From Odontesthes bonariensis (lineage: Eukaryota > Chordata > Actinopteri > Atheriniformes > Atherinopsidae), in assembly GCF_027942865.1 (NCBI RefSeq), contig NC_134514.1, forward strand, positions 17,097,965-17,161,964: a DNA stretch of 64,000 nucleotides, in the 5' to 3' direction. This document shows, piece after piece, positions 3,001 through 62,124 of the stretch. The position numbers and the translations under genes are program-made. Numbering within the stretch: the first letter of the stretch is position 1; each line of letters starts with the position of its first letter. The notes beneath the pieces were generated by a model that was not told the origin of the DNA, did not search any database, and worked only from the letters and a program-made list of their open reading frames with translations.

Positions 3001-6000
3001 ACCAACCACTGTCAAATGCAGACTTTGTTGGTTTTGATACATCTTTGACCCTTAAAAAAACCCTGAGAGTGATCTGTACCCTACATGCTGAAAATGACAC
3101 AAAAGGGGTCTCTGATGTGTTCAAGTGTGGTGCCAAGAGCGTCTGACCAAACATCCCTATTTGACAAGCTGGAAGTGAGAATGTGTTGATTTTCTGGGTC
3201 AAATGTCTCTGGCTCAAATATTTTGATTAGAACTAAAATGCAACCCACAGAACTGTTAGTGAAGCATGACTCAGCACTATGTCAACTTGACAAAGTGCTG
3301 AGTCAACTTGAACAGCAGTACGATATATTCTTTATATACGTTCAAAACAAGTCAAATTAAGTTTTTCTGTGTGCTGTCTCCAAGCTGATACCACAAAAAC
3401 GCAACAGATTCTAAATTTTGTCTTCTCACTATTGCCTCTACTTTTATCTTTTTGTACTGTTATTTGCATCTGCATCATTCAAAAGCCTAATAATACAAAA
3501 ATCAAGTACATGATATTTTGAATTTGGTCCTCAGGATCTGAAAAATATATCAGTAGTTTTAAAGTCTCCCTTTCTTCTTTCCAACATTCCTCTCAGATTA
3601 ACATTCAGCACTGCATTTTCACCATGACTCTGCACTTTGCCGTGTTGGACAAACGTCCTTCTGATGTTATCCTCTGTTTCCTGGGTAGGTTCTTATAAAG
3701 TGCATCATCCATTGCAGGAGGAGAAAGTAGAAAAAGAAAAAAACATAAAGAGATAAGTGAAAGCCATTTGCTCGTGAACCTTGAACCTGCAACATGATAC
3801 AGCAGAACCAAAATAAAAGGTAAGGAGTTACTGCACTGGCCCATTCAAATTTGGGTTTTACGTTTCCTTGCTGTCTCCACCATTCTAATTTTTTCATTGT
3901 CAGTCTCTCACTTGTAGCTTGCACGATGCCTGAGATGGCTGCATTTTGTTATCCCACATGTCCCTTGTCCCCATTTTAATAGTCATGTGATGGACCTGCC
4001 AACATCCCTGCTTATGCCAGGGACTTTAGAAATATTTCACTGTAGATCAAGGCTGCAGGTGGTTTCTACTATGACTGATACATTGTTTGCTAATAATAAT
4101 AGCTCATAATAAATGCTGATGTTATTACTTTTGCATTTATTTACCTTTCTAATGACACATGAAACATAAGGGATCGTCAGATAGCTTTTAAGACATTCAG
4201 TAATGAGGAACATGTTGCTGTTGGAGGGACAAAAGTCCCTCATATATTTGACATGTTCTTATGTACAATTGCAGATCTATTTTGTGTGCACGGATGATAG
4301 AAGTAAAGAAAAACAGCTGTACGGTTAACTGTATGGTCCAGCTAAATCCCCATAATACCCTGCAATCTTTAAATTCAAACACAAGGGTTTCTGTTGTCAT
4401 GTCCAGTGCCATTCAAAAATGCAGTAAGGCAGTGAGTTAGGCAGTGAATGCGATAATATTTTGAGGTCACCTTTGAAATCTGAATATATCAAATGACAGC
4501 ACTAAAACTCATCTTCACAGCAGAGACTGTGTGCAGTGTGTGTTTTCATCGATGGGGCCTACTCAAGAAAAACTCTCAGCTCTCATGTGTCTGCGGGTTC
4601 AGCCACTGAAGTTGTCCTTTCTCACAGAGCAATGCACTATTTCACAGAATCCCGGCGATTCCTTCCAATCTTTCACACAGTGAGAGGGAACAAAGGACAA
4701 GCTTGATATAACAAACTGGGCACTGAGAGGACAGCTCCCTACCAGCCTGTGTCCTGGTCCTGTGGGCATTCTTTGGTGTTAAAGGTGCTTTTCCCACAAA
4801 TTTCTACCAGCAGGACCCTTTTTAAAAGGGACTTAGATTGTTGTTTGAGTGTAAGCTAACCCCAGCACGTCCTGGACCCCATGCACAAATCTTAAGGTAT
4901 CAGACTGTAGGGCTCTTTATCCCAGACAATGAGGGTCTGACTCTTGTTACAGTTTAACACTCACCTTGCTAAAGATTGCAGGTTGGTAGCCAGGAGCACA
5001 TTATCTCAAGGAAATTTGAAACCATTGTTATACTTGAGTATAACAATATAAGAATGAAACAATTATAAGAATTAAAGTTACAGATGTTCCCATTTCTAAC
5101 TTTCATTCTAATTTTGTTTCCCCCCTTTTTTGTTTGCCATCACATGTCCTGAAAGAATACCAGAAAAGAGATAGATGTGGCACAATGCCATACCTTACAT
5201 TCATGTACCAACTACAGCAATGACCGGTTAGGGAAAAAGCACAGTTGGCTCCTCTGCAATCTTAGCCTTTGTCATATAAACATACCAAATGTTAGATTTG
5301 TGTTATTGCTGCGCTTGTTGTTCCACGTGCACTACACTTTGGTGCCACGGCTGCAACAAAAATTCGTATTCTTTGCTGATTTGGCACTTGGGGGGAGAGC
5401 AAATAAGCACACAAAGGAGGGAGGTCACATCAAAGTCCAGTGGTTCTCTTCACAGCTGTATTGGCCAAAGCATCTTCGTTTGCTCCTTAGTGCACCAATA
5501 TGCCCTAGTTTTAAGTGCCACTGATAAAACTGAGGTTTCTGAAAGGAGATTAGTGTTCACCGACGTTGCAATGCAACTGCATCACTTTGAACGCAGAAAA
5601 CTCTTAACAATTGAATCATAATGAATTCCTTGGACGTGCTGGATAAAAGCCCACATTTCATTTAAAAAGTGTGGAAACTTGGAAAAGATCAGTTTTTAAA
5701 GAAATAAATGATCCAGAGTTTTAAAGACAGTTGACGGTACAAGTTAATATATGCAGTTTGAAAGTTTTCTAAAATGTCCCACGACTATTTAAACATTTGC
5801 TCTCGGCGGACTCGTCTTGTTATGACACATCGCTTTCACTGCAATGATGCAATAGATGTCACTTGTTTCAGGTTAATGTACATATTGAAAAAGGCACTGC
5901 TGACAAAAACATGCAGACTATGTATTCAAGACATACCTAATCTAACTTAAACATGCTAGTAACACACATACTGCATGGTGTAATAGTACTTGGTCTACTT

Positions 6001-6417: not shown

Positions 6418-6569
6418 TTGGATTTACCGGTAGATAAGCGAGTACCTTCGCAGCGAGAAGGAAGCGCACACCCGACACTAGTTCTGAGACATACTTGAGA
6501 GAAGTATTTGTACTTTTGAGGATAAGGGTAACTTTTTTTTAGGTTTCTGGGTAACTTTGAACGCACACA

Positions 6570-7246
6570 ATGGCAACGAAGATAAACATGGAGGAAACCA
6601 AGGCATCCAACGGTGATGCGCGTGCCGAGGAGCAGCTGGCCAACGGGCTGAGCGGCCACAAGAAGAGCAGCCAGGAGCCGCTCTCCGAGCGGGTGAAGAA
6701 AATCGTGTCGGCAAATTTACTTGTGATTCTCACCGTGGCCGGGGTCATCGTCGGCGTTTTTATTGGACTTGGCGTGCGCAACGTGGAGCTGACGAAAACG
6801 CAGATAATTTACGTGGGTTTCCCAGGTGAGCTGCTCATCCGGCTTCTGAAGATGATCATCATTCCTCTGGTTGTCTGCAGTCTGGTGTCCGGGGCGGCGA
6901 GCATCGACCCAAAAGCCCTGGGCAAACTCGGCGGCTGGGCTATGCTGTTCTTTCTGGTCACCACCCTGATAGCATCATCCATCGGGGTGGTGATGGCTTT
7001 CATCATTTCGCCGGGGTCAGTGGCCGTCAACAAACCCACAAATCTAGTTGAAGACATGCCGGCCCATAAAGAAGTTATAGACTCCTTCTTAGATTTGATA
7101 AGGTGAGTGATGTCCCCACCTAAACCTGTGTTGTGATGTGTAACCGTTCACTGCTTCTGAATATTTTCCACTCTGTCGAACATACAGGAGTCTGAGCAGT
7201 CTCACAGCCCATTATTAAAGACTCCGGAGGGATAAAATGCCCCCCC

Positions 7247-18102: not shown

Positions 18103-19701
18103 TCACAGTTTGCCTCTGTCCAGCCTCTTTTTTGCAGGGTTGGGGTACTGTGGGTTCTCTATCACCCCCTCTCCAAACTTAAGCTCCAAGAAGGCTCTGT
18201 GGTTGTTGGGGCCGTAGGGGGTGATGCCGGCAAAAGGCATGGGCACCAGCGGCTGCAGGAAGTGTTCTGGGAACTCCACATCTTGTTTGTGCTCTGTCCA
18301 CGTGTCTTTGGTCATTACACCATTGCGTGAATAGAAAGGCCAAAGGTCGACATGCAGGTGGTTGGCCTCGCTGTACTGCACTCTGTAAAAGTCTCCTTCC
18401 ACTGCACGCTCCCACACGTACCCATTAGCATCGACCAGAGAGCCCGAGTCCAGGTTCTTTAAGTGGTCGCAGTTGGGTACGTCGTCCAGATAGATACCCA
18501 GGTCCACATCGTAATCCCATGGGATGATGTCTTGATGGCGAATGGCACCCAGCAGAGAGCCACCCTCCAGCCAGTAGCGAACACCGGAGCTCTCCAAGAT
18601 ATTGATAACATACTTGGTGGTTTCCCTTAGTGCTCGCAGACAGCAAGGAGGCGTCCAGCGGTCCAGATAAAGATAGTCTGGTGTGTCATCTTGCACAGTG
18701 CCAAAGCACCGAGGCGTCTCTTTGCTGCAGCCATACCACTGTTCCTTCCCTTCGGGCAGCAGGATGCGCTTCAGACCAAAGCTCCTCATGAGCTTTCCTG
18801 TAGCCTCCTTCAGTCCAGTGTCAGCCTTCCACTGGTTGTGCGCAGAGCTGAAGAGTGGCCGGTGGTTTGCAGAGAAGCAGGGGCTTTCCAGCAGTTTGAC
18901 CTTCCAACCTCTCAAGACAGTCTGGATGAACAGCGCTGAAAAGAGCGGCCGACCCAGAGGAACAGAGAGGTTGAAAAGATCCTCGGTGCGAATGAGCACG
19001 ACTGCATCTCCTTGCAATGCCGTACACACGCTCCCACTGCTCCCGGAGGCAGCCGGTGAATAGGTGGCTGTCCACTCTCTGAGGTTCACCCGCAAATGGA
19101 GACACTGCACAGCAGATCGCGCAAGCACAGGTGCAGCGACCAGCCTCACAGGCCCTCCGCCCTCACCTTCCAACTCTTTGATAAGCCTCTCAAAAACACG
19201 AGGTTGCTCCAGGTCCACTCCATCAGGCACCAGCAACACAAACTCCGTCTGCACGTGAAACTCCGGCCTGTGAGCTTGAGGTGGCTGGTCTGGGCTTGGG
19301 GAGAGCACCAGAAGCCGAGCGCCCTCAGGGAGCACCAGCGGAGGGTATGGAGACGAGTCAGCCACAGCAAGGAAGGGAAGCTCTGGTCGCTGATGAAGGA
19401 AGGAATTAGCCACATCCCCAACATAATTCTCAAAATTTTCAAACTCTCGAAGAAGAATGGTCACTCGTGGGCCGCGATTGCGTCCCTCTACTCCAACCCC
19501 TCCATCAGCTCCAGCCCCTCCAACTACCCCTAGACGACCTCCTCCGAGACCAGAGGCTGGCAGAACAACCCTTTTCGTGCCCCTGCCAAGCTCCTTCCTC
19601 TTCTCCATCATTTGCTGCTGGGCCCGAGATACATAATAGAGAATAAGGAGGTTGAGGATGATGGCACCAGTTAACAGACCCTGGCAGAAACTAATACGCA
19701 T
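18103..19701 (-). CDS. fkrp: Fukutin-related protein, ribitol-5-phosphate transferase
   Basis: A Golgi enzyme that transfers ribitol-5-phosphate from CDP-ribitol onto the alpha-dystroglycan core M3 glycan. The 532-codon frame lies in one exon, as in human FKRP (495 aa). Residues 6-25 form a single hydrophobic segment near the N-terminus, giving type II Golgi topology. The stem contains a Gly/Val-rich stretch (about residues 52-76) that probably explains some of the extra length. The catalytic LicD-like domain has [24 protein letters not shown], with the metal-binding D396-x-D398-x-D400 (human D360/D362/D364). The zinc-binding cysteines are at C325, C332, C353 and C354. The C-terminal region has [19 protein letters not shown] and [11 protein letters not shown]. 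An in-frame TAA lies four codons upstream of the ATG. The gene is divergent from strn4 and convergent with slc1a5, as in human. No break seen. Confidence 0.96.
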
Positions 19702-19722
19702 GGCAACTGATTACTTTCCAGC
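19702..19722 (-). other. fkrp: fkrp 5'UTR end and splice acceptor
   Basis: On the minus strand the 21 nt before the ATG follow a pyrimidine-rich acceptor ending CTCAAAACAG, so this coding exon probably begins at 19722. Upstream non-coding exon(s) would then lie further right. Human FKRP likewise has non-coding 5' exons spliced to one coding exon. The donor partner was not identified. Confidence 0.55.
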
Positions 19723-21480
19723 CTGTTTTGAGAAGAAGAATCTAATTTTCAATAAAGACATCCAGTGCCAGGTCTTGGGTCCCCGTGTATTTAAAAGTAG
19801 ACGATTGCGAGTTTGCGTTAAACTAAAAAAAAAAAAAAAGTGTTTTACTCATAGTTGCACAACCTCATCTCTGAACGTCGACTGTGTAAATTCCATTTGA
19901 ATGCATCATACAAATCTCATGGTACTTTGAAGTGACACAAAGGAAAGATTAAACTATCTACTCTTCATTTGAAATATTTAGCAGTCAAATTAAAATGATC
20001 CAAGCCACAAACAGGTTCTGCCGAATCAATCGATAAAAACAAGCTAGTCACAACTCACCTTCATTTTGAATATATATACATATATGTATATAATATTTAA
20101 ATATATATCAGACTAAATGCAAAACTTTTGCAGGACGCAGGGCCCTCATATCATGCAGTAATTATCAGACGCAGCGACGCAAGCTACATAGCAACCATTC
20201 GATTTCACTGCGTCTATTTCAGCCAGCTGTGGTAGAACAGGAGAAACCCGTCTGAATCCGTCGCAGCAAATACAGATATTAATGTGCATTATCTGCTGAA
20301 TATTTTGATAACTTTAAATTTTAATCGACTGTCCAACGTCAAAAATACAACACCACAACTTAGGGTATTTCATTCGCATGAAGCCTAAATATCCAGTCAT
20401 GAAGTCCTCCTGCAAGACTTTAGCAACATGCTAACATGTTTTTACTCTCCGTTAGCCATAGCAACAGAAAGACTTCCGGTTAATCTCCTTCAGAATAAAG
20501 GTGCACTCTTCAAACATGAGAATAACTAAAAAAAGAAAGAAAAAGAAAAAACAAAGAAAATTAATTGATATATTTCAAAGTCGCTCGAGTTCTTTTGCTT
20601 TAATGTTCAGACATCATGTTTCTGAATAATCTTAAAAATTGACATTTTTGCATAGAATTTATTGTACCAAATGTACCAAAGGTTCGTGTTTTGTGTAGAA
20701 CAAAAGTAACCACAAGCAGAGTAATTTGTTCAATTATCTTTTTTTCGGGCTAAAATTGTTGCATATCAAACTTGTTATATTGTTTTAAAAAAGCTTGAGA
20801 ATAATAATTTTTTATTCCATTTTTTTGTTTGTTTGTTTTGGCAAAAAAAAAAGTATATTTGCCGATGTAGCAGAAGTTAATACAAAATAGAAATTAGATT
20901 GAAACCGGAAGCAGATTGATAGATAATTTTGGATAACTTTTGTAGTCCCAGCGAAATGCTCACAAAATGGCAGGAAATTAACTCCCATGGTGACATGCTG
21001 GATTGTGTGTTAGGGAAAACACTGCTCTTTATTTGTCACCCCCATTGGGCTTTTCCAAGCGCAAACACGGGGAGGAGGAAACAGATCAGAGCAACGCAAA
21101 ATAAGAGTCCCAAACCAAACGTGAACAGTTGTTTTCAGCAAATGGCCAAACATTGATTTTACTTTCCTTCAATATAAGTTTCAAGTTTATGAGTAGGACT
21201 TATTTATACATGTTGTCAGTTGATCACGAAAACTGCCAAATAATTTAAAATCTGTGGCGAAATAATGTTTTATGTTGAAGGTCTGAAAGCGGAAGTGTTG
21301 TATTTTGCCAAGTGAATAGTAATTTTGCTCTGTACCGTATGAGAAAAGGAAGAATAGAGGGTAGCCTACAGCGAAGAACAGCTGGGTTGGAAAAGGGTAC
21401 GGGGTACTTTTTATTATTTTTTTCCCCTACATTCTGCCCGTGTCCACCTCATTATCGTGGCGAAAGGTTGAACGGTTAAA
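19723..21480. promoter_or_regulatory. Head-to-head fkrp/strn4 promoter interval
   Basis: 1.76 kb separates the fkrp coding exon from the strn4 ATG. Visible motifs are an ETS site CTTCCGG (20473-20479) beside an RFX X-box-like sequence (about 20451-20465; reverse strand GTTGCTATGGCTAAC), another TAGCAAC half-site near 20187, CCGGAAG near 20905, and a GABP-like GCGGAAGTG (about 21290-21298). ETS sites are typical of TATA-less housekeeping and divergent promoters. The motifs are seen; their use is inferred. The rest is AT-rich with an ATATAT tract around 20070-20108. Confidence 0.45.
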
Positions 21481-24400
21481 ATGGAGGCGGACAGATCCGG
21501 CGGAGGACCAAACCCGAACTCCGGAGGCGGCAGCAGTAGCGGAGCGGGGCGCAACCCAAACGGGCCCAAAACAGCACCGGGCCAGGCGACATCAGCTGCG
21601 GCTGCCGGGGCGATGGCAGCGGCGGCGGCAGCAGCAGCAGCAGCAGCAGCCGGGAACATCCCCGGGTCGTTGCAGAATCGGGAGATACAGGACGGGGACT
21701 CGGGTATGACACTTCCAGGAATCCTGCACTTCATCCAGTACGAGTGGGGACGCTTCCAGGCCGAAAAATACCGCTGGGAGGCAGAGAGAGACGAACTCAG
21801 GGTAAATTTCTTTATCATCAGGCGTGCGTTTGTAGCGGGACTAATAAGAAAGCAGAACGGAAATTGCCAGAGCTATTTTAGTTTTGCTTTGTGATGGTCC
21901 TATTTCCAACAATGCGTTTCAGGATGTCAACATGCTAATGGGCTAACATTCCCTTATTGTATCTAGCAGGATGCACTATTACCAAACAATAAATGATACT
22001 GTACTGTACGACCTTCAGTTGATGCCTGCCAATTAGAAGACAGCCAGCAGCAGTCTCTATTCAGCAAATAATCATAGCTTTCAGAGACTATTATTTACGC
22101 TTTTCGCGCTTCAAAAGCCAATATAACATCTCTCATAAAGATTTACAGCACAGGATGTGATGTAGCGTTATATCAGCCTGCCGAAGCTACCAAGTTACGC
22201 TACAAACAAAAAGAGATGAATAGTTTAGGTGTGGCTACTTTGCCTTTCCGTGTTATTTATACAGACATGGATCAAAGACATGTCTGGGCCACAGTCTATT
22301 TATCAAAGATTGTGTTTGGGCATTCATGTGCAAAACTAGCTTCTAAGCAGACAGTATTATGATTTTCATACCCCACAGGAACAAATCAAGTTGTCAGTGT
22401 CAGACAGCCTTGTATTGAACTCCCTGCTTTGCAGGTTAATAGTTGAGCATCCAGAAATTGCCCTCACCAAAGGAATAGAGAGTAACATGTGGAGGAGTTT
22501 GATTGTTGATCTGTTTTGTTCAGCAAAATAATTACCACAGGGAAACAAAGATGATCAGAGTAATCTTTGGACGGAGGCCTCTGTACTCCACATCCACACA
22601 GGACAGCTGGCAGTTTTAACTTGAAATCATACTCGGGCGAGATGCTTTGACTCATAACCCATCGTGTTCTGCAGTGTAGAGTATGCTTGTACGAGGTGGC
22701 ACTAAAAGCAAAATCAACCTTTTGAGCTGCCACACAGCTGAGTGAGTCAGTGGTGTGGGAGAGCTCCATGGCTGCCTGTGATACAGTTGTATTTTTCAGC
22801 ATCATCAATCCATCCTTGACTGTCTTAGATTATTGTCAAGCGCCGTTCTACCTACAGTCAGGCTTGTGGGTGGGTGGGGTTTATAAATGTTAAACTGTAT
22901 AAAATATATCAATACAGTTTTGCCTGCAAGTTAGACAAGTGGGCGAGCATCTTTTAAAGGTCATTGATTTGAAACTAGAATAGCCAGGATGGTCTATGAG
23001 AGTGTGTGATTAAGTGCCAACTAAATGCCCTTGAGCAAGGCATCGGTCCCCCTGATGGCCCCAGCTACTGAGATACAAGCCGCAGAAGCAAGAGGTTGCC
23101 CCGTGTCGCTCTCCTGCGCGGATGTAACTGTGAGGCGGAGCATTGCCGGAGTTATTTATCAACTTGTTCCGGGACTCAGGAAGGTTAGGAAAACATGGAC
23201 ACGTATAAATATGTTTATGCTTCTGCATTTGGAACAGTTCATCTTTTCAATCTTAGACCCACAAGTGGCCTTCCTCCTGTTACCACAGATCGCCTGTAAT
23301 TACTGTAGGCTGAACTATCCTCTGCAGTTCTCAAGCTTGATGAAACCCACAGAAAAAACACATCACTGGCTCCCTTCTTCTGCTCTGCTTCTCGCTTTGC
23401 CCCCGACTCAAATGTGTGAGGTTATAAATAGGAGTTTGATATAATATGGATGAAATATAACAAAGTGGCTGTGTTGCTGCTTTTATCAGCCGGGTAAAGA
23501 GTGGGAATGGAAATCAGACACAGGCCTTTGCCATGTCCAACATGCTATTGGAGCTTGTTATGGAACTGGGATTGTATGTGCGTATTTGCTGCACATGATC
23601 TGGTTTCACAAGTACAATTAGCACCACATCCTGTGATGAGAGAATGGGAGGATCACTGGAGTGTCGGGCTGAAGAATTGACCTAGCTTACATTTTAACAC
23701 CCACAGGCCACAGGCCTCTGGCTTTGTTGCCGGCATGCTCGCAGAGCTCTTAGCATGCCAGTTAGCATACCCGCCGGCTGAATCCTGCAGAGTTAACAAC
23801 ATACTGCACATGTGTGCATATCATAGTTAGCTCACATGTTGCTCACATGGCATTTTGTGCACCTCATTTGACAGAATGATGAAGGACACTGGAAAGTCTT
23901 AAATGTTGGGGAGCAAAACCCCCATCTGTCAACTATGTGACTTTTTGCGTGACCACGCAAAGTCCCTCCGCTAGACCATAACATGTGCGCCGTCTCTGTT
24001 AGTGTGTTGTTAGTCTGAGTAGCCACCTGTGGTGCCATGTCTCCATTGACAGGCAAGAAATTAAGTCCCTTCCTCCCCCTTCTCTGGACCAGGTGGGACT
24101 TCCCAGGTCAAACATAGGACAGCAGCACAGGAGACAGGTGGCTGTGGACTTGTGTCTCTCCTCTTCAGACACACAAAATAAGCTATTAAAAGAACTTGCT
24201 GTAGGAGCACCGCACCGCCTGTGAACAAGTTCTGATTAATCTATTTCCTGATCCTCAGTAATAGTCACTCTGTGTTGCCAGTTAAGAGCTAAGTCATGGC
24301 ACTTGTCCTTCAGGGGAAAGCACATATCTTTACCTGTCCCTCTTTGCCCCCCCCGACTATTTAATTGCATTAACCATCTCACTAGTGTGTAGAATAGATT

Positions 24401-33400: not shown

Positions 33401-36400
33401 GGCCATTGCAAAGGTTATCACGCATGCTACCTCTTCTTGTTACATGTTCACATTTCATTCTTTCAGCCATATTTACACAATAGCTTTGTGATTATTTTTT
33501 TTTATTTTATTTTTTTTCCTTTAGATTTTAACCTCTCCTATAGAGACTGACTACAATTATTTAAGATTATTTTATTTTATAGAACATAGTGTATCTTTTT
33601 TCCTCTTTCTGCCTGCATTTGTGTCATCTGTCCATCTGTTGGCCTCTCCGTCCTTCCTCCGCCTCTCGGCATGACTGGATCTTTTGTTTCTCTCCTCTTG
33701 CCGGGTTCAGAGAACCGCAGGAACAAGTTACAAGGCATGATGTCGGATTTCCCCCCTAAACCTACCCCACCCCCCTCTGTATCAGGACAGGCTCGCCCCG
33801 GGGAAGGTAAGATTTCCTCAACTTAAATGCTTCAAAAGAAAAAAAAACGTGGATTGTCTCTCCCCAACTATTATTAGTCAGTTTACTCTATCCCACACTT
33901 CCTGCAATTGCAGCTTTTGATGATGAAACTCCGTTTTAAAATCTGTGTCGGGTTAAACTTGCAGAGCTACTCCCACACCTCTGAATATTTCCTTCCTACA
34001 TAGTGTGGGAGTAAGGAAACCGGATGAATGGACACAGCTTGCCACAAGTTTTTGCCTTGTAGAACATTTAGAGCCTCTGTGTTGCTCAAGACACGGAGAT
34101 AACTCTTGTGCTTTACCGCCTCCTACCTGCAGGTGGTGCCCTGGGTTTCTCCTCTGATGTCTTCATTATGGATGCAGTTGGAGGAGGGGACATGAACCTG
34201 GGCGAACTGGCGGATCTCACCGTCGCCAATGACAACGATCTCTCTATGGATGTAATTACAAATCTGATCTGGTCGAACCTCAGTATGTATCCAGTGTGTG
34301 CTCTTAAAAACTGTAAATATCCCCCTCTTGTGTGTCTGTGTGCCATTAGATGCAGGATAACAGAGAGGAGTTCAAGAAGACGTGGAACCCTCGTTTTACA
34401 CTACGCAGCCACTTTGACGCCATCCGGGCTTTGACCTTTCACCCCAGCCAAGCAGTGCTGCTCACAGCATCTGAGGATGGTACACTAAAACTGTGGAACC
34501 TCAACAAGGCCATGCACTCTAAAAAGTAAGAGCTTCCCTATTGTTGCACTTTTCTTTTTTTTCTTTTCACACGTAATGTTGCTACTCCTGCTGATATTGT
34601 CCAAACACAAACTCGCACAGAGCAGAGAAATACAATTCTGAAGCAAGTTTCAAAGATTGTTTCTGTCCACAGGAACGCAGCTCTGGATGTTGAACCCATT
34701 TACACATTTAGAGCGCACAGGTGAGTTCAGTCTCAGACATGTACGAACACTAATTTGTGTTTGGTGCACATCCTTGCCGCTCACATCCAACTCACCACTC
34801 CACTGACGGCTGTCTGGTTTTGTGTAGTGGAGCTGTTCTGTCACTGACAATGAGCGAGGAAGGAGAATCCTGCTTCAGCGGCGGTTTGGATGGAACAGTC
34901 AGGTGTTGGAAGATGCCCGACCTCAATGTAGATCCTTACGATAACTATGGTGAGTTTTAACAGTAGTCGGCAACATTTCTATAAAGCGTATATCTTGTGT
35001 TTGTGTTATATTAAAATGTGTTTCTCCCATCGTTTAGATCCTGGCATTGAGAGCAGCGTACTCGCAGGCCACGAGGACAGCGTTTGGGGTCTGACTTACT
35101 CATCAGCTCACCACCGCCTTGCTTCCTGCTCAGCTGACGGCACCATTCGCATCTGGGATCCTCAGAACTCGTCTCCCTGTTTGTCCGTCTTCAATAAGGA
35201 GAAAGGTACACCTCCGTGTTGTATGGAGGCCCTGAGGGGCAAAGCGGCAGCAAAGCAAGACACTCATTCCACCGAAAACAACAAACAAAACCAGGAAGCA
35301 CAATGACAAAGGAGGAAACCGTGAAAATTGTTTTTTTTAAAAAGCAGAAAAAATGCAGCATTTGTCTAATTCTATTTTTAGCGTGGGATTACCGTGTTGA
35401 CCCTTTTAGACAAAGCAGATACAGAAAGAACTTCCACATAATCTTGATTTATGGCTTTTTCAGCAGGCAAAAATAACAAGAACGTAGAGTTTTGTTTTTT
35501 TTTTTCTTTTTTTCACAGCTCTGTAGTGTTTATCAAACATTTTTATGTTTTGCACCTCAGGTCCAGTGTCATGTTGTGTATGTAGATTTATTGTGTCCAG
35601 GCCCCACAGATTCATTATTTCCCTCCTTTTTCCAGAGCATGGAACACCCACCTCAGTGGCCTTTGTGGCCACTGACCCCAACCAGGTGGTGGTGTCATTC
35701 GACGCTGGCGAGACATTGCTCTATGACCTCAACACAGAGCAGAGCGTCACTGCATTAGAGACGCAGACAAAAGACGGTATGTTCTGAACAGTTAATTCTC
35801 CTCTATGAGTAATGTTCCCATTTAGAAATGACCTGTGAACACATGGTGAGATAAATAAATTAAACAGATTGAATTGTTTGTTTCCTCTCGCAGGCAGTGA
35901 GCTGATCAACCGTGTTGTGAGTCACCCAAATGAGCCCGTCTCCATCACTGCACATGAGAACCGCACCATCCGATTCCTGGATAACAAGACAGGTGCTTTG
36001 TTCGAGCAGTTTCCTCCGGGATCGATAAAGTTTTCTGATTCTGAAAATCACAAACAAAAGTTTGCCATGGTGACGTTTTTATTGACATACCAGTATAGTT
36101 GCTAGTTTCTGAGGAGGGTGATGTGAGGGATGATGTGATAGCTGACAAAAAGTAGTTCTAGTTCTAAGCAGATCAAACTCCAAGTGGTAAGAAATTTAAG
36201 ATGTGAATATTATGAACAGATTTAATCTGATGGATGATGGCTGTGAGATGTCACCTTTGCCTGCCCGTCCTGAAGTTGTCCTCACAAATTGTCTTGTCTT
36301 GTATTTTCATACAGGTAAAGTTGTCCACTCAATGGTGGCCCACTTGGATGCGGTCACCTGTCTTACTACAGACCCTAAAGGCACTTACCTCATCTCTGGC

Positions 36401-51308: not shown

Positions 51309-51784
51309 CGCTCTTTTGAAGGCGGCAGACAATGGGGTCAGTGTGAGAGTTGACAGGATGGGTTTGGCTGCTAGGGGGCATGTGTGGAGTGTGTGTTAAT
51401 GTAGCTCAGACACTTGAAATGCGTGTTTGTGTATGTCTGCATGCAGGGCACAGTTATGAGGGGAAATGGGAAAACCACAGTCTTACCTCAGTAGATAAAC
51501 ATATTACATCAATACAGACGACTGGTCATTGGAAAAACCACATGGGGAATAGCATGCAGTCAATAGGTCTATATGATGCTGCTCCCTTGTACCAGTCAAA
51601 TGCTACAAACTGTTTTGTGCTTCCTCATATTGAGGTATGCAGTCCATGTATCAGGTTATGTTTGATAGATCAAAGCCTAATGAGATATGACCCCACATCT
51701 GTGTCTAAAACCTAGAAATAACTCTGACGTTATGTCACAATTTAATAATGTTGATTTAAAAATCCTAGAGGAAACAGTTCGGTA

Positions 51785-52880
51785 ACTTGTATATGCTCCC
51801 TTTGGGTCAGATATTGCAGAATTTTAACATCAATTATCACAGTTATGCAGACGATACACAACTTTATGTGTCTCTGTCACCGGACGACTGCAGCCCAGCT
51901 GACGTTCTGTGTCAGTGTCTGGAGGAAGTAAACACCTGGATGAGAGAGAATTTTCTACAATTAAATGAAGACAAAACTGAGATCATTCTGTTTGGTAGCA
52001 AAGAGAAGAGGGTCAGCGTTGGTAAATATCTTGAGACTCGGGACCTTATAATCACTGACCAAGTTCGTAACCTCGGAGTGTTGATGGACTCAGATCTGAC
52101 TTTCAGCAGCCACATCAAAGCTGTCACCAAGGCAGCTTTTTACCACCTCAGAAATATCAACAGAATTAAAGGTTTCCTCTCCCAAAAAGACCAGGAGAAA
52201 CTCATCCATGCATTCATCTCCAGTAGACTCGATTACTGTAATGCTCTTTTAACTGGACTTCCCAAAAAGAGCATTAAACATCTGCAGCTCATCCAGAACG
52301 CTGCTGCTAGAGTTTTAACCCGGACTAAGAGATCTGAACACATCACACCAGTTTTAAAATCTTTACACTGGCTTCCAGTCAGTCATAGAATAGATTTTAA
52401 AAGCCTGCTGATGGTTTACAAATCCCAGAATGGTTTAGGCCCAAAATACATCTGTGATATGTTCAGACAATATAAACCCCGCAGAGCTCTTAGATCCAAG
52501 GACTCAGGTCAGCTGGTCCAGTCCAGAGTCCAGACTAAACATGGAGAAGCAGCATTTAGCTGTTATGCTGCAAATAAGTGGAACAAACTGCCAGTGGAGA
52601 TTAAACTTTCACCAAATGTAGACATTTTTAAATCCAGGTTAAAAACATTTCTTTTCTCATGTGTCTATGCATGAAATATCTTTTAACTTATCTAGACTGT
52701 TGCCTGATTTTAAATTCATTTAAATGATTTTATTTGTTTCTCTTTATATTATTTTATGTATTTTTAATGCTTCTTGCACTCCCTGCTGCAATGCTTTTAT
52801 TTTATGTAAAGCACTTTGAACTGTTTGTACATGAAATGTGCTATACAAATAAATTTGATTTTGATTTGATTTTTGATATT
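51785..52880 (+). mobile_element. 5'-truncated L2-type LINE retrotransposon
   Basis: The element starts abruptly inside the reverse transcriptase domain: an in-frame TAG lies upstream at 51766-51768 and element-like sequence begins at LYMLPLGQI. It runs through the ORF2 C-terminus to a 3' tail with TGTAAAGCACTTTGAACTG and CTATACAAATAAA, ending in imperfect TTTGATT repeats. This tail form is typical of fish L2/CR1-clade LINEs. No target-site duplication was seen. About 1.1 kb is kept of a full element of several kb. Confidence 0.88.
51787..52674 (+). pseudogene. L2 reverse transcriptase C-terminal fragment
   Basis: 295 codons remain open with no stop or frameshift, although the first codon shown is TTG and there is no native start. 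SYADDTQLY (about residues 16-24) is the catalytic YADD motif of the RT palm. Downstream are LNEDKTEIILFG, NLGVLMDSDLTFSSHI and LDYCNALLTGLP, then LHWLPVSHRIDFK, the usual thumb and C-terminal region of CR1/L2 ORF2. The endonuclease domain and N-terminal RT motifs are lost. The intact frame suggests fairly recent insertion. Confidence 0.9.
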
Positions 52881-58411: not shown

Positions 58412-60416
58412 GTATCTGAGCATTCCTTTTAGACCATAAAGCACTATCTAGATTTAAATGTTGAAATAGCCTAAGCCTCAGTTTTTTATTTGCAGTGATA
58501 TTCACAGTTAATTGTGTGCATTCCTATTTTCTGTGACTATGGCGTAGTTTTAACGTCCTAATTCTTTCCTGAGGCGACCTGTTCATTACATATTTACATG
58601 CGGGCTTCTTCACTCCTTTGAGGAGCTATAAACTACATGCTCAAGTTTGCAGCTTCCTGTGTCATGGACAGAAAACTTACTTACAGCAACTTACTACTCA
58701 AATGTACCAAAATAATAGTTTAGGCATATGTGGCATAAAATGTTACCGATACAGTTCTGAAACAACTCGTGTGGATTAGAGATCCCCTGCCCTAAAGCTG
58801 CCATAAAAGTCAGTTTGTTGTTAGTTTTTGGACCATATGGAGTTTCCCTTTTTGCTTTTGTGTCACCCTAAGTATCATGTAGTTATTTCTTATGTGTAAT
58901 CATAATGTCTCAGTTTATTAAAGCTCATGTCACTCAGGCCATTTTGCATCTCTAAAATAATGTGAAACCAAGTTGGGCAAATGTTTCTCTCACTAGATTC
59001 AAAAAGATCCAATGAGCTGCATAAATGCAAGATCAGTTCAAAGGTTGATTTTTAACAGCAGTGTTGAGGCACAATTACTTAGATTTGCTGTCTATAAGCT
59101 GTAAAGCGATGGCTTGTTGGCACAGAAGTCAACTATATGTAATTTTGTGAGCGCTGGGGTGTGCATGTGTGTGTGTGTGCGGCTTGGTGGTCAAAGGTGG
59201 CTCTTGCTGAGCTGCCAGAAGGGAAGTGATGAGGAAGATGAAAAGCAGAAGCGACAAGCTTTCTCAGCAGGGCATAAAAGACTTCACACATGCTGCATCT
59301 TTTTATAAAGAGGGTCTATATTAAAAAGAGCGGCCCTATAGCATTTGACAGGCCCACAAGGTTGAAATAAACCCAACTCAAGATATTTCTGCTTGAGGTT
59401 GTGTGCAAGCAACAAGACCTTATTAAGGCGGTAACCTTAAATTGCTTGTTTTATTAAATCAAACCCGCAATTATTTGCTCAGAAAACTTCCCGATTACAT
59501 TAATCTGATGTATGTGTCTAAAAAGTAACAGCAAAAACCTAAAGTAGAAGAAGAATGAGGTATTAGTGGTATCACTGTTTCATATTATACATGCTCCAGT
59601 TTGTTTGTGCTTGTTGCTGTCAGAAACACTATCTCAGTCCTCACCTCAGGGCATGTAATCTTCCTTACAGGCTTAGGTGGTCAACAAAGAAATAAACAAA
59701 CCAACAGGATGGAAGCACATTATAGAGTAAATAACAAGCCATACGTTGTCTTAGAATGTATCTGTGTGCTTGAATGCAATGTTTTTGTGCTCTTATGTCT
59801 CTCACAAAAGCCACTCCTTGTGGCATCAAACTGGTATGACATGAGGATGTTTCAAGTAGATAAAAGTTCTTATTAATGACTTACAGATAATCTGGATAAA
59901 GTTGCTTGCCCCTAATGACTTTTTACAGTAGCAACAGCACTTACATCCACAGGAACACAAAGTAATAGTTTACAACATGGAGGTTGATGATCGTGGTGGC
60001 TGCATCAGCTGCAAATTGATCACTTTTGCAGTTCCAGTTTCCATTTGAATAACTTCCTCACTGCCACGGTTGAGTGAGGTTATATAAGGTACAAAGCTAA
60101 CTAAGCTGAAACAAGTTCATAGCATGTTTGACTCTAAAAGCAGATAATCAACGTAAGGGATGAGGTCATCCCTCTCTGTGAAAGATTGTAAGACAAAATA
60201 GTTTAAATTGAATTGCAGAATTCGGGAACGTTGTTGTGTACAGTTCATAATATGATGAAAAGATTCAGGAATCCAAATAAATCTCTCTTCAAGGCTTCCA
60301 TGTCACTTTCAAAAGTAATGCAATTGGTCCCTTTCCAAAATTTGTGTTCTAAAAGAAGAGATGGTGCGACGCAGACATGCCTCCTTTCAAGTTTTCTTTT
60401 TCTTTTTTCTAGATGG

Positions 60417-60433
60417 TTTGGCTGGTATCAAGC
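60417..60433. repeat. Penelope target-site duplication, left
   Basis: TTTGGCTGGTATCAAGC, a 17-bp perfect match to 62108-62124. The last four bases AAGC are also shared with the start of the inverted arm. Confidence 0.93.
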
Positions 60434-61045
60434 GCCTAGACGCGCTGGCATACTATTTAAAAGAAGACCAGTGATCACAGTCGATCATCAAAGAAAACAA
60501 AAAAACAAAAGGAACAATCAATCACAATAATCAGAACAATAATCGATAAAAGATATTTGGTATGGAAGACACATAAAATACAGAATATTCACAATAGGGG
60601 CCTCAAGTCAAATTCCATATTGAGACCTTTGGGGGACAAAGTGTTTAACATGTAAATATAGAATGCTTCCCTTCTAAGCAGAAGGTTATCAATGTCTCCT
60701 CCACGTCTGGGGGTGGAGACTTGCTCAATGCCAATGTATTTTAATGTTGACAGGTTATGTTTAAAAGTGTTAAAGTGCACAGCAACTGGATTTTTTTGGT
60801 CATTAGTGCGTATGCTACTTCTGTGCTCCGCAATGCGAGTTTTAATGCAGCGTGTAGTTTTGCCTATATAGGCGAGGCCACAAGGGCACTTGATCATGTA
60901 AATAACGTTCTTGGTGTTGCATGAAATAACCCCTTTTATTTTGAGCACCTTCCCGGTGTGTGGATGGGTGTAGGTATTACACTTGTAGGTAAAATTGCAT
61001 TGTGCACACTGTGCGCACCTGTAATTTCCTTGAGGGAGAGGTGAG
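60430..61045 (-). repeat. Inverted repeat, left arm (616 bp)
   Basis: Reverse complement of 61216-61831 with the same length on both sides and only scattered substitutions by eye. The inner boundary matches at CTCACCTCTCCCTCAAGG and the outer at GCGTCTAGGCGCTT. Its first four bases fall inside the target-site duplication. Confidence 0.92.
60589..61045 (-). pseudogene. GIY-YIG endonuclease fragment, inverted copy
   Basis: Minus-strand frame open from the arm boundary to TGA at 60589-60591. It encodes YRCAQCAQCNFTYKC, then NVIYMIKCPCGLAYIGKTTR, the GIY and YIG parts of the nuclease fold, with the downstream IKTRIAEHRSSIR arginine helix and NLLLRREAFYIYML containing the conserved glutamate. It has no stop inside the endonuclease, unlike the plus-strand copy, but lacks reverse transcriptase and any own start codon. 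Confidence 0.82.
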
Positions 61046-61672
61046 GGAGAGTTTGAGAATATCGTGCGTAAACATTGGCCAATTCTGTGTTCCGACCCTA
61101 CATTACAAGACGTGTCATTTAGACAGCCTCCGCGTTTCGCCTATAGGCGCTCGTCTAACATCTCTAATTTGGTCGTAAGAGCTGACCAACCCCCCATAAA
61201 ACCACCACCTTTTTTCTCACCTCTCCCTCAAGGAAATTACAGGTGCGCACAGTGTGCACAATGCAATTTTACCTACAAGTGTAATACCTACACCCATCCA
61301 CACACCGGGAAGGTGCTCAAAATAAAAGGGGTTATTTCATGCAACACCACGAACGTTATTTACATGATCAAGTGCCCTTGTGGCCTCGTCTATATAGGCA
61401 AAACTACACGCTGCATTAAAACTCGCATTGCGGAGCACAGAAGTAGCATACGCACTAATGACCAAAAAAATCCAGTTGCTGTGCACTTTAACACTTTTAA
61501 ACATAACCTGTCAACATTAAAATACATTGGCATTTAGCAAGTCTCCACCCCCAGACGTGGAGGAGACATTGATAACCTTCTGCTTAGAAGGGAAGCATTC
61601 TATATTTACATGTTAAACACTTTGTCCCCCAAAGGTCTCAATATGGAATTTGACTTGAGGCCCCTATTGTGA
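61046..61672 (+). pseudogene. Penelope RT C-terminus plus GIY-YIG endonuclease, broken
   Basis: Frame open from the truncation point at 61046 through the RT tail and into GIY-YIG (IYMIKCPCGLVYIGKTTR), then interrupted by TAG at 61535-61537, where the inverted copy has GAG. Beyond the stop the same frame continues to the native TGA near 61670-61672. Two residues also differ from the inverted copy before the stop (K/T and A/V). The element therefore cannot make an intact endonuclease from this strand. Confidence 0.82.
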
Positions 61673-61831
61673 ATATTCTGTATTTTATGTGTCTTCCATA
61701 CCAAATATCTTTTATCGATTATTGTTCTGATTATTGTGATTGATTGTTCCTTTTGTTTTTTTGTTTTCTTTGATGACCGACTGTGATCACTGGTCTTCTT
61801 TTAAATAGTATGCCAGTGCGTCTAGGCGCTT
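61216..61831 (+). repeat. Inverted repeat, right arm (616 bp)
   Basis: Partner of 60430-61045; the spacer between arms is 61046-61215 (170 bp). Together they form a near-perfect 1.4-kb palindrome with a central loop. Confidence 0.92.
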
Positions 61832-61932
61832 GTTATGCCACTTGTCACCTTAGGGTGCGCTCACCTGCTTTGCCAGGTAGCCTACCTGTAGGTCATGTGA
61901 TATAAGTCACCCCAGACTACTGCTCTCATTGC

Positions 61933-61972
61933 CTGAGGAAGATCCCACTGGTGGATCGAAACGTTGCCGTTT
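61933..61972 (+). ncRNA. Hammerhead ribozyme-like core in Penelope terminal region
   Basis: CTGAGGA (61933-61939) fits the CUGANGA box. GATCC...GGATC forms a 5-bp stem II, GAAA (61958-61961) is the second conserved box, and ACG-TTGC-CGT gives a 3-bp stem III with a 4-nt loop ending in a UU cleavage context. Penelope-like elements are known to carry hammerhead motifs in their terminal repeats. Sequence on either side does not give an obvious stem I, so this copy may be inactive or act only when another unit supplies the pairing strand. Confidence 0.5.
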
Positions 61973-62107
61973 ATGTATAAATGAAATAAAGTATATTTTT
62001 TGGAGCTTATACCCAGTGTGCGGACCATTTCATCACACTGTCTGACACTTTTGTCCGGCACCTGGATAATTGCTTTGTGGATGTGCGCACCCCAACCTCC
62101 AAACGCC

Positions 62108-62124
62108 TTTGGCTGGTATCAAGC
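62108..62124. repeat. Penelope target-site duplication, right
   Basis: Exact 17-bp copy of 60417-60433. Confidence 0.93.

Follow-up and report, generated by a model that had tools for sequence, protein, structure and literature searches.

Inverted ends and tails are already published as variable features of Penelope-like elements (PLEs). In Adineta vaga, Penelope insertions such as Pen2a_Av were described with an inverted pLTR, one target-site duplication (TSD) and an optional tail, and self-priming was the explanation favoured in the passages compared here (Arkhipova et al. 2013, PMC3846280). For Poseidon PAc from Anolis carolinensis, the corresponding passages of Frangieh et al. (2024, PMC11167929) report that the purified PLE cuts and extends both strands in vitro, and that reverse transcription starts at two adjacent internal sites bounding the tail; the same paper describes PLE insertion as unresolved. 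The rule reported below, that an insert with paired ends carries one tail, was not found stated in the parts of the PLE literature consulted (PMC3846280, PMC11167929, PMC8969392, PMC7599744, PMC12910113, PMC7229834), and its priority is uncertain.

The locus studied here lies in the window, a stretch of 64,000 nucleotides from Odontesthes bonariensis in which all plain positions below are counted. An insert of 1674 bp (60434-62107) is flanked by perfect copies of the 17-bp TSD TTTGGCTGGTATCAAGC at 60417-60433 and 62108-62124, confirming what an earlier note on this DNA had claimed, and the 17-mer has no third occurrence on either strand of the whole window. A search for inverted repeats in the window gave arms at 60426-61045 and 61216-61835, 620 nt long and 99% complementary. 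The left arm derived from the element is 612 nt long (60434-61045, minus strand), and is the reverse complement of 61216-61827, comprising part of the GIY-YIG coding sequence and part of the 3' UTR. The inverted duplication of the earlier note is therefore real, although its arm length of 616 bp had counted the AAGC of the TSD. The right arm (61046-62107, plus strand) carries a tail at its 3' end and wholly contains the equivalent of the inverted arm; the 170-nt spacer between the arms (61046-61215, plus strand) is part of this copy only. Microhomology with the target had been proposed at the left junction as AAGC, and was found as CAAGC, the last 5 nt of the left TSD copy, with agreement at 7 of the final 8 nt. 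The inner junction holds one extra G and no clear common stretch, and no complementarity able to prime a fold-back was seen there by eye. The outer TSD abuts both arms exactly and no second TSD was seen inside the insert, in line with the earlier view of a single integration rather than a nested one.

From its sequence, the element is taken to be a 5'-truncated PLE. A Pfam search with 61046-61534 matched the GIY-YIG endonuclease, a partial domain at 61355-61465 (plus strand), with E = 4.1e-4 and 21 bits, slightly under the curated cut-off of 22.6, and the motif is recognisable in the translation; the shorter inverted arm had no GIY-YIG match at E <= 0.01. Reverse transcriptase (RT) is missing from this truncated copy, and in the sister copy L009 an upstream ORF matched RVT_1 (E = 7e-6, 26.3 bits, under the curated 29.6). 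Together the two domains support the earlier assignment to Penelope. A putative hammerhead-like core, CTGAGGA...GAAACGTT, is located at 61933-61965 (plus strand); it is what we take to be the consensus motif, and it was found in the window's family (A) and in two related families (B and C). Minimum-energy folds predicted the hammerhead stems in B and C and only stem II in A, and an Rfam search with the region returned nothing up to E = 1. A PDB sequence search gave nothing useful. Short single-ended copies (L059, L060, L061 and L064 in B, L062 and L063 in C, L019 in A) have near-identical start points just before this core (query 300-302 in B, 296-297 in C, el 886 in A, where el is the window position minus 61045), as if RT had run to the 5' end of an RNA or had met a fixed stop.

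Other elements and genes were also noted. Divergent PLE-like RTs (about 31-36% identity) lie near contig ends or in same-strand clusters, at G000:C16:1710-2375 (+), C21:38311856-38312521 (-), C18:32938 and 40653 (+), and C16:37.42-37.49 Mb (+); the 5' ends of the first two face the contig end, and the group possibly represents telomere-type elements. Within the window, Pfam assigned pieces of host genes to an SDF symporter (6561-7103, +), a fukutin-related protein (18103-19707, -), striatin (21472-21891, +) and a WD40 exon (34932-35303, +).

A search of the O. bonariensis assembly (945 Mb, 187 contigs) with 61046-62107 returned 45 matches, many of them as near (-)(+) pairs. A census was made with the 3' ends of families A, B and C as queries, and neighbouring matches within 12 kb were treated as a pair. 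All candidates were scored in A and B, and the best 40 of 101 in C, a scope that applies to every count for C given here. There were 7 (-,+) pairs in A, 16 in B and 18 in C, in sum 41; after collapse of seven C17 and two C19 copies, judged to be duplicates from similar spacing and ends, 7, 15 and 12 remained, in sum 34. Both ends were present at 7 of 15 places in A, 16 of 26 in B and 18 of 31 in C, and one end only at 8, 10 and 12 of these places, respectively, plus one same-strand pair in C. Six single-ended copies have a TSD of their own. The sole (+,-) neighbours lie between two copies of the C17 block. In C, the same-strand pair just mentioned, at C4:9.82M, was left out of the pair counts, as were two nested T matches (see below). 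Family A, looked at for tandem copies of the kind that gives pLTRs, showed no same-strand neighbours among its 15 places, and the L023 family gave a single match in the genome search. A unique event was thus rejected, as the same anatomy recurs across the genome, and the earlier note is to be corrected in that this is not a rare template switch, head-to-head inserts with a single TSD being recurrent in three families and, as predicted, in a fourth. Head-to-head insertion looks like a usual landing mode of the Penelope retrotransposons in this genome.

The LINE control gave no (-,+) neighbour pair among the best 40 of 2637 candidates, a weak control that says little because just these 40 were scored; one 55-nt (+) piece was found next to a (-) match. 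The corresponding LINE-type RT fragment is open at 51769-52674 of the window (RVT_1, E = 1.2e-8), and its family, with 2637 first-look candidates, is 98-100% identical in the best 40, save one short piece. The C17 block (G000:C17:30.78-30.87 Mb) consists of seven similarly spaced places with the same family C head-to-head insert and the same inner geometry (L056 is one copy), and is probably one insert amplified together with its surroundings. Another repeat lies inside or beside several PLE inserts (L013:4300-5657, L028:1024-2536, L011, L015), the L015 copy carrying a satellite-like array of about 52 bp.

Each of 31 resolved inserts (6 in A including the window, 15 in B, 10 in C) has one outer TSD of 11-17 bp, with one mismatch in L016. 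The lengths were 16 nt in eleven inserts, 15 in nine, 14 in six, 17 in three, and 13 and 11 in one each. This set leaves out L010, whose TSD an indel has disrupted, L028, whose TSD could not be resolved, C14:37154k, where a TSD was looked for without success, the second of the C19 copies (32.89M), all but one of the seven C17 copies, and the single-ended copies. The outer ends fall mainly into two clusters, a short (S) end and a tail (T) end about 60-70 nt further 3', at el 992-1003 and 1055-1062 in A, 381-394 and 451-457 in B, and 397-406 (some at 376-390) and 458-463 in C. We accordingly refer to the inverted and the direct arm of the window insert as the S and the T arm. Its outer T end, 62107, belongs to the cluster at 62100-62107 (plus strand); the S-end site of most other family A inserts, 62037-62038 (plus strand), is unused by it. 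Ends of neither type, such as the left end in the window (el 782), face a T end in the resolved inserts.

Exactly one T end was present in 33 of the 34 collapsed pairs, and no pair had two. The Penelope features of an inverted end, a single TSD and a tail at one end were found in the resolved inserts. The tail end of L009 (about 1022-1026) is short of the T cluster, yet was counted as a tail. Without collapse, 35 of 41 pairs had exactly one tail, and the tailless remainder is C14:37154k and five of the seven C17 copies.

Predictions for unused families were set down before these were searched. In family E, all 16 clusters from the best 40 of 42 candidates were head-to-head with one tail at the outer ends, where the query ends at 290, near the T end, and T ends were checked directly in five inserts; two of the 16 (C25:30.8M and C26:33.97M) possibly represent a single event. 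TSDs of 15-17 bp were seen in the five of 16 inserts read, and one end only was present at 9 of 25 places (best 40 of 42 candidates). Three E clusters contain an extra same-strand match, whose coordinates alone suggest a tandem unit boundary. In family F the one insert examined was read as ending in a single tail of about 83 nt, with a TSD of 14 bp and without TG. For A, B, C and E together, the 49 one-tail pairs among 50 have P = 4.5e-14 if end types are independent at one half and the pairs are treated as independent events.

The target sites show further regularities. At the 20 usual S ends 1.65 target bases were shared with the RNA against 0.71 in the null, and at the 11 other S ends 2.45 against 0.70; in both sets 0 of 5000 null samples were as high. 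The 14 readable T ends had a mean sharing of 1.57, a figure without a null, and since T ends share target bases too, the sharing is not special to S ends. Across A, B and C, 34 of 62 sides had inward TG at -4,-3 (P = 3.8e-26 against local base composition), with 3 of 12 sides in A, where it is weak, 17 of 30 in B and 14 of 20 in C. Of the 31 inserts, 23 had TG within the last six flank bases of either side, and distal control windows had it on 17 of 62 sides. In the window, ATGG (60413-60416, plus strand) adjoins the target with TG pointing inward, and TG recurs in the right flank when that is read inward, in both flanks at -3,-2. The symmetric TG predicted for a held-out family failed, because E had it at -4,-3 on 0 of 10 sides, and a universal TG target motif was rejected. 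Two dispersed repeats were each hit twice at the same base by independent PLE inserts (L048 in B and L017 in A; L061 and C19:36452k, both in B, L065/L066), once from two different families.

The window insert was probably produced by two-sided target-primed reverse transcription, with one cDNA per cut strand and two adjacent start sites on the RNA. The sequences themselves establish the single TSD, the extent of the two arms, the bases in common with the target and, across the families, the pairing of ends with one tail. From these we infer two separate priming events, an order of cuts, an RNA of one source and end joining in the centre, as follows. Both target strands would be cut 17 bp apart, and the bottom strand would prime a cDNA at the T start site, 62107, with copying ending at 61046. 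The end of the top strand, CAAGC, could pair with GCTTG (61828-61832, plus strand) inside the element RNA and prime a second cDNA, which would stop at 61216. The inner ends of the cDNAs would then be joined and the gaps filled; since both cDNAs are antisense, their joined inner ends would give a head-to-head insert within one TSD. The best reading of the window copy is thus a 5'-truncated example in which priming of the second cDNA took place at an internal 5-nt match. The case for two primings comes from the other inserts, as copying back also fits the anatomy of the window insert taken by itself.

In the latter explanation, proposed for Penelope inverted repeats as self-priming on an antisense template in the passages compared (Arkhipova et al. 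2013, PMC3846280), the 3' end of the target-primed cDNA turns back, copies the second arm and joins the other side of the cut. Separate RT runs would yield both types of arm containment, and copying back only S arms inside T arms. By-eye reading of 25 inserts with readable inner ends placed the S arm inside the T arm in 13, including the window, whereas in 11 (L010, L012, L013, L014, L016, L024, L026, L028, L045, L049 and L050) the S arm is the longer one on the 5' side and the T arm on the 3' side, and therefore neither arm is a copy of the other; L047 was ambiguous. There is no overlap between the arms of L049. In favour of copying back, a near-perfect hairpin forms the centre of some inserts (L053, and L048 with an almost perfect one), and some of the 11, such as L013 with another element at its centre, could owe this shape to later deletions. 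On the other hand, the usual S ends form a narrow cluster, which fits a start site and not a random stop, and the inner junction in the window lacks visible fold-back complementarity. Copying back was therefore set aside as a general route on account of the 11 inserts, and we consider it unlikely for the window.

A shared source of both arms is suggested by other observations. In L009, L010 and L012 the partner arms have common variants that are absent from every other alignment row, and each of these pairs therefore had one source; the arms in the window are by raw distance not mutually closest. L010 has an 87-nt stretch in both arms (4281-4366 and 5279-5365) that is missing in the other copies compared and adjoins an apparent internal deletion; it supports one source for both arms.

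Twin priming, the other mechanism named in the earlier note, is known from L1 as a variant product with the inverted part 5' of the direct part and little overlap. Two-sided priming resembles it in that the second target strand would prime internally on the RNA and one TSD results, and differs in the overlap of the arms and the recurrence of two start sites. An occasional accident of this kind on one RNA, apart from the usual route of the element, would account for the single TSD and for the left junction, where the internal start has a 5-nt match. It is nevertheless quite improbable because the anatomy recurs in four families, and the overlap is complete, with 61216-61827 lying inside 61046-62107. 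Two separate (nested) insertions, or a later inversion or duplication, could be invoked for the raw distance of the left arm, 0.5% from L014 against 0.8% from its own partner, but are very improbable given a single outer TSD that meets both arms, with none seen between them. Long inverted repeats are a known type of assembly artefact, but a palindrome made from chimeric reads is hardly credible here given the TSD at both outer sides, the unequal arm limits, the arm differences and the same anatomy at many places.

Alignment of the arms in the window gave five differences in 612 nt (0.8%), at 61350, 61389, 61535, 61777 and 61817. At the first three the left arm has the base of all remaining copies (12, 13 and 13); at 61535 the change creates a stop codon in the right arm (61535-61537, plus strand), private to it, with the inverted arm open there. 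At 61777 all 13 other copies side with the right arm, and 61817 varies among the rest (12 C, 3 T). In L024, L026, L028 and L012, whose arms are very similar, there are 8 differences in 4983 nt; these four inserts were picked as among the most similar, older inserts (L009, L010) differing more, and as they were chosen for high similarity their rate bounds RT error. At this rate at least five differences in 612 nt have P = 0.0034, so that those in the window are probably mostly later mutations. Gene conversion between the arms may also have acted. Of the two readings in the earlier note, that the differences date the event or reflect RT error, RT error was set aside as the main origin.

Extended to PLEs at large, two-sided priming would be a concerted two-ended integration, in which a dimeric enzyme would cleave the two target strands at points about 15 bp from each other and prime a cDNA from each. 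One strand would have to use the distal (tail) start on the RNA and the other the proximal start or one upstream, the RNA probably being of one source, and a complete insert would be head-to-head with exactly one tail. Our confidence in this broader proposal is evenly balanced. Against two-sided priming stand the many one-ended places, the tailless pairs, the target bases shared by T ends, the 13 inserts with the S arm inside the T arm, the hairpin centre of L048, the raw distance between the arms in the window, and the anole enzyme, which showed no strand difference in start site and therefore does not predict strict pairing.

The structure in the window is one that a known kind of element usually produces, and its interest lies in the rule behind it. 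Inverted repeats of this type in similar assemblies are not necessarily artefacts or double hits; the two arms of such inserts are usable as a rough clock. In the passages compared, A. vaga Penelope resembles the present families in its GIY-YIG domain, in the inverted copy of the 3' end that completes the insert, in the one TSD and in the tail on one inverted end, and head-to-head is termed the most frequent arrangement (PMC3846280). The rotifer inserts differ in that a pLTR of about 200 bp forms their inverted part, the tail is called optional and the TSDs are 9 and 10 bp in the two inverted-pLTR inserts (PMC3846280); in the present families the arms are up to about 2 kb long, TSDs of 14-16 bp prevail, and the presence of one tail in each paired insert is nearly strict. 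PAc likewise has two adjacent internal start sites, with cutting and extension of both strands (PMC11167929), established in vitro there and proposed here from sequence, and a hammerhead motif near the ORF start, to which the hammerhead-like core of the present families may correspond. In contrast, PAc showed no strand difference in start site in vitro and preferred AT-rich (ATT) targets, and the passages compared do not link the tail to head-to-head inserts (PMC11167929); here one T end is paired with one S end, and A, B and C favour inward TG. The census suggests one rule, with one TSD, one tail end, one short end and separately made arms, which agrees with the in vitro findings of two start sites and of extension on both strands, and makes the question of PLE integration testable. 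If true, the broader proposal would amount to a concerted two-ended mode of retrotransposition, different both from the one-sided priming of LINEs and from the way LTR elements integrate.
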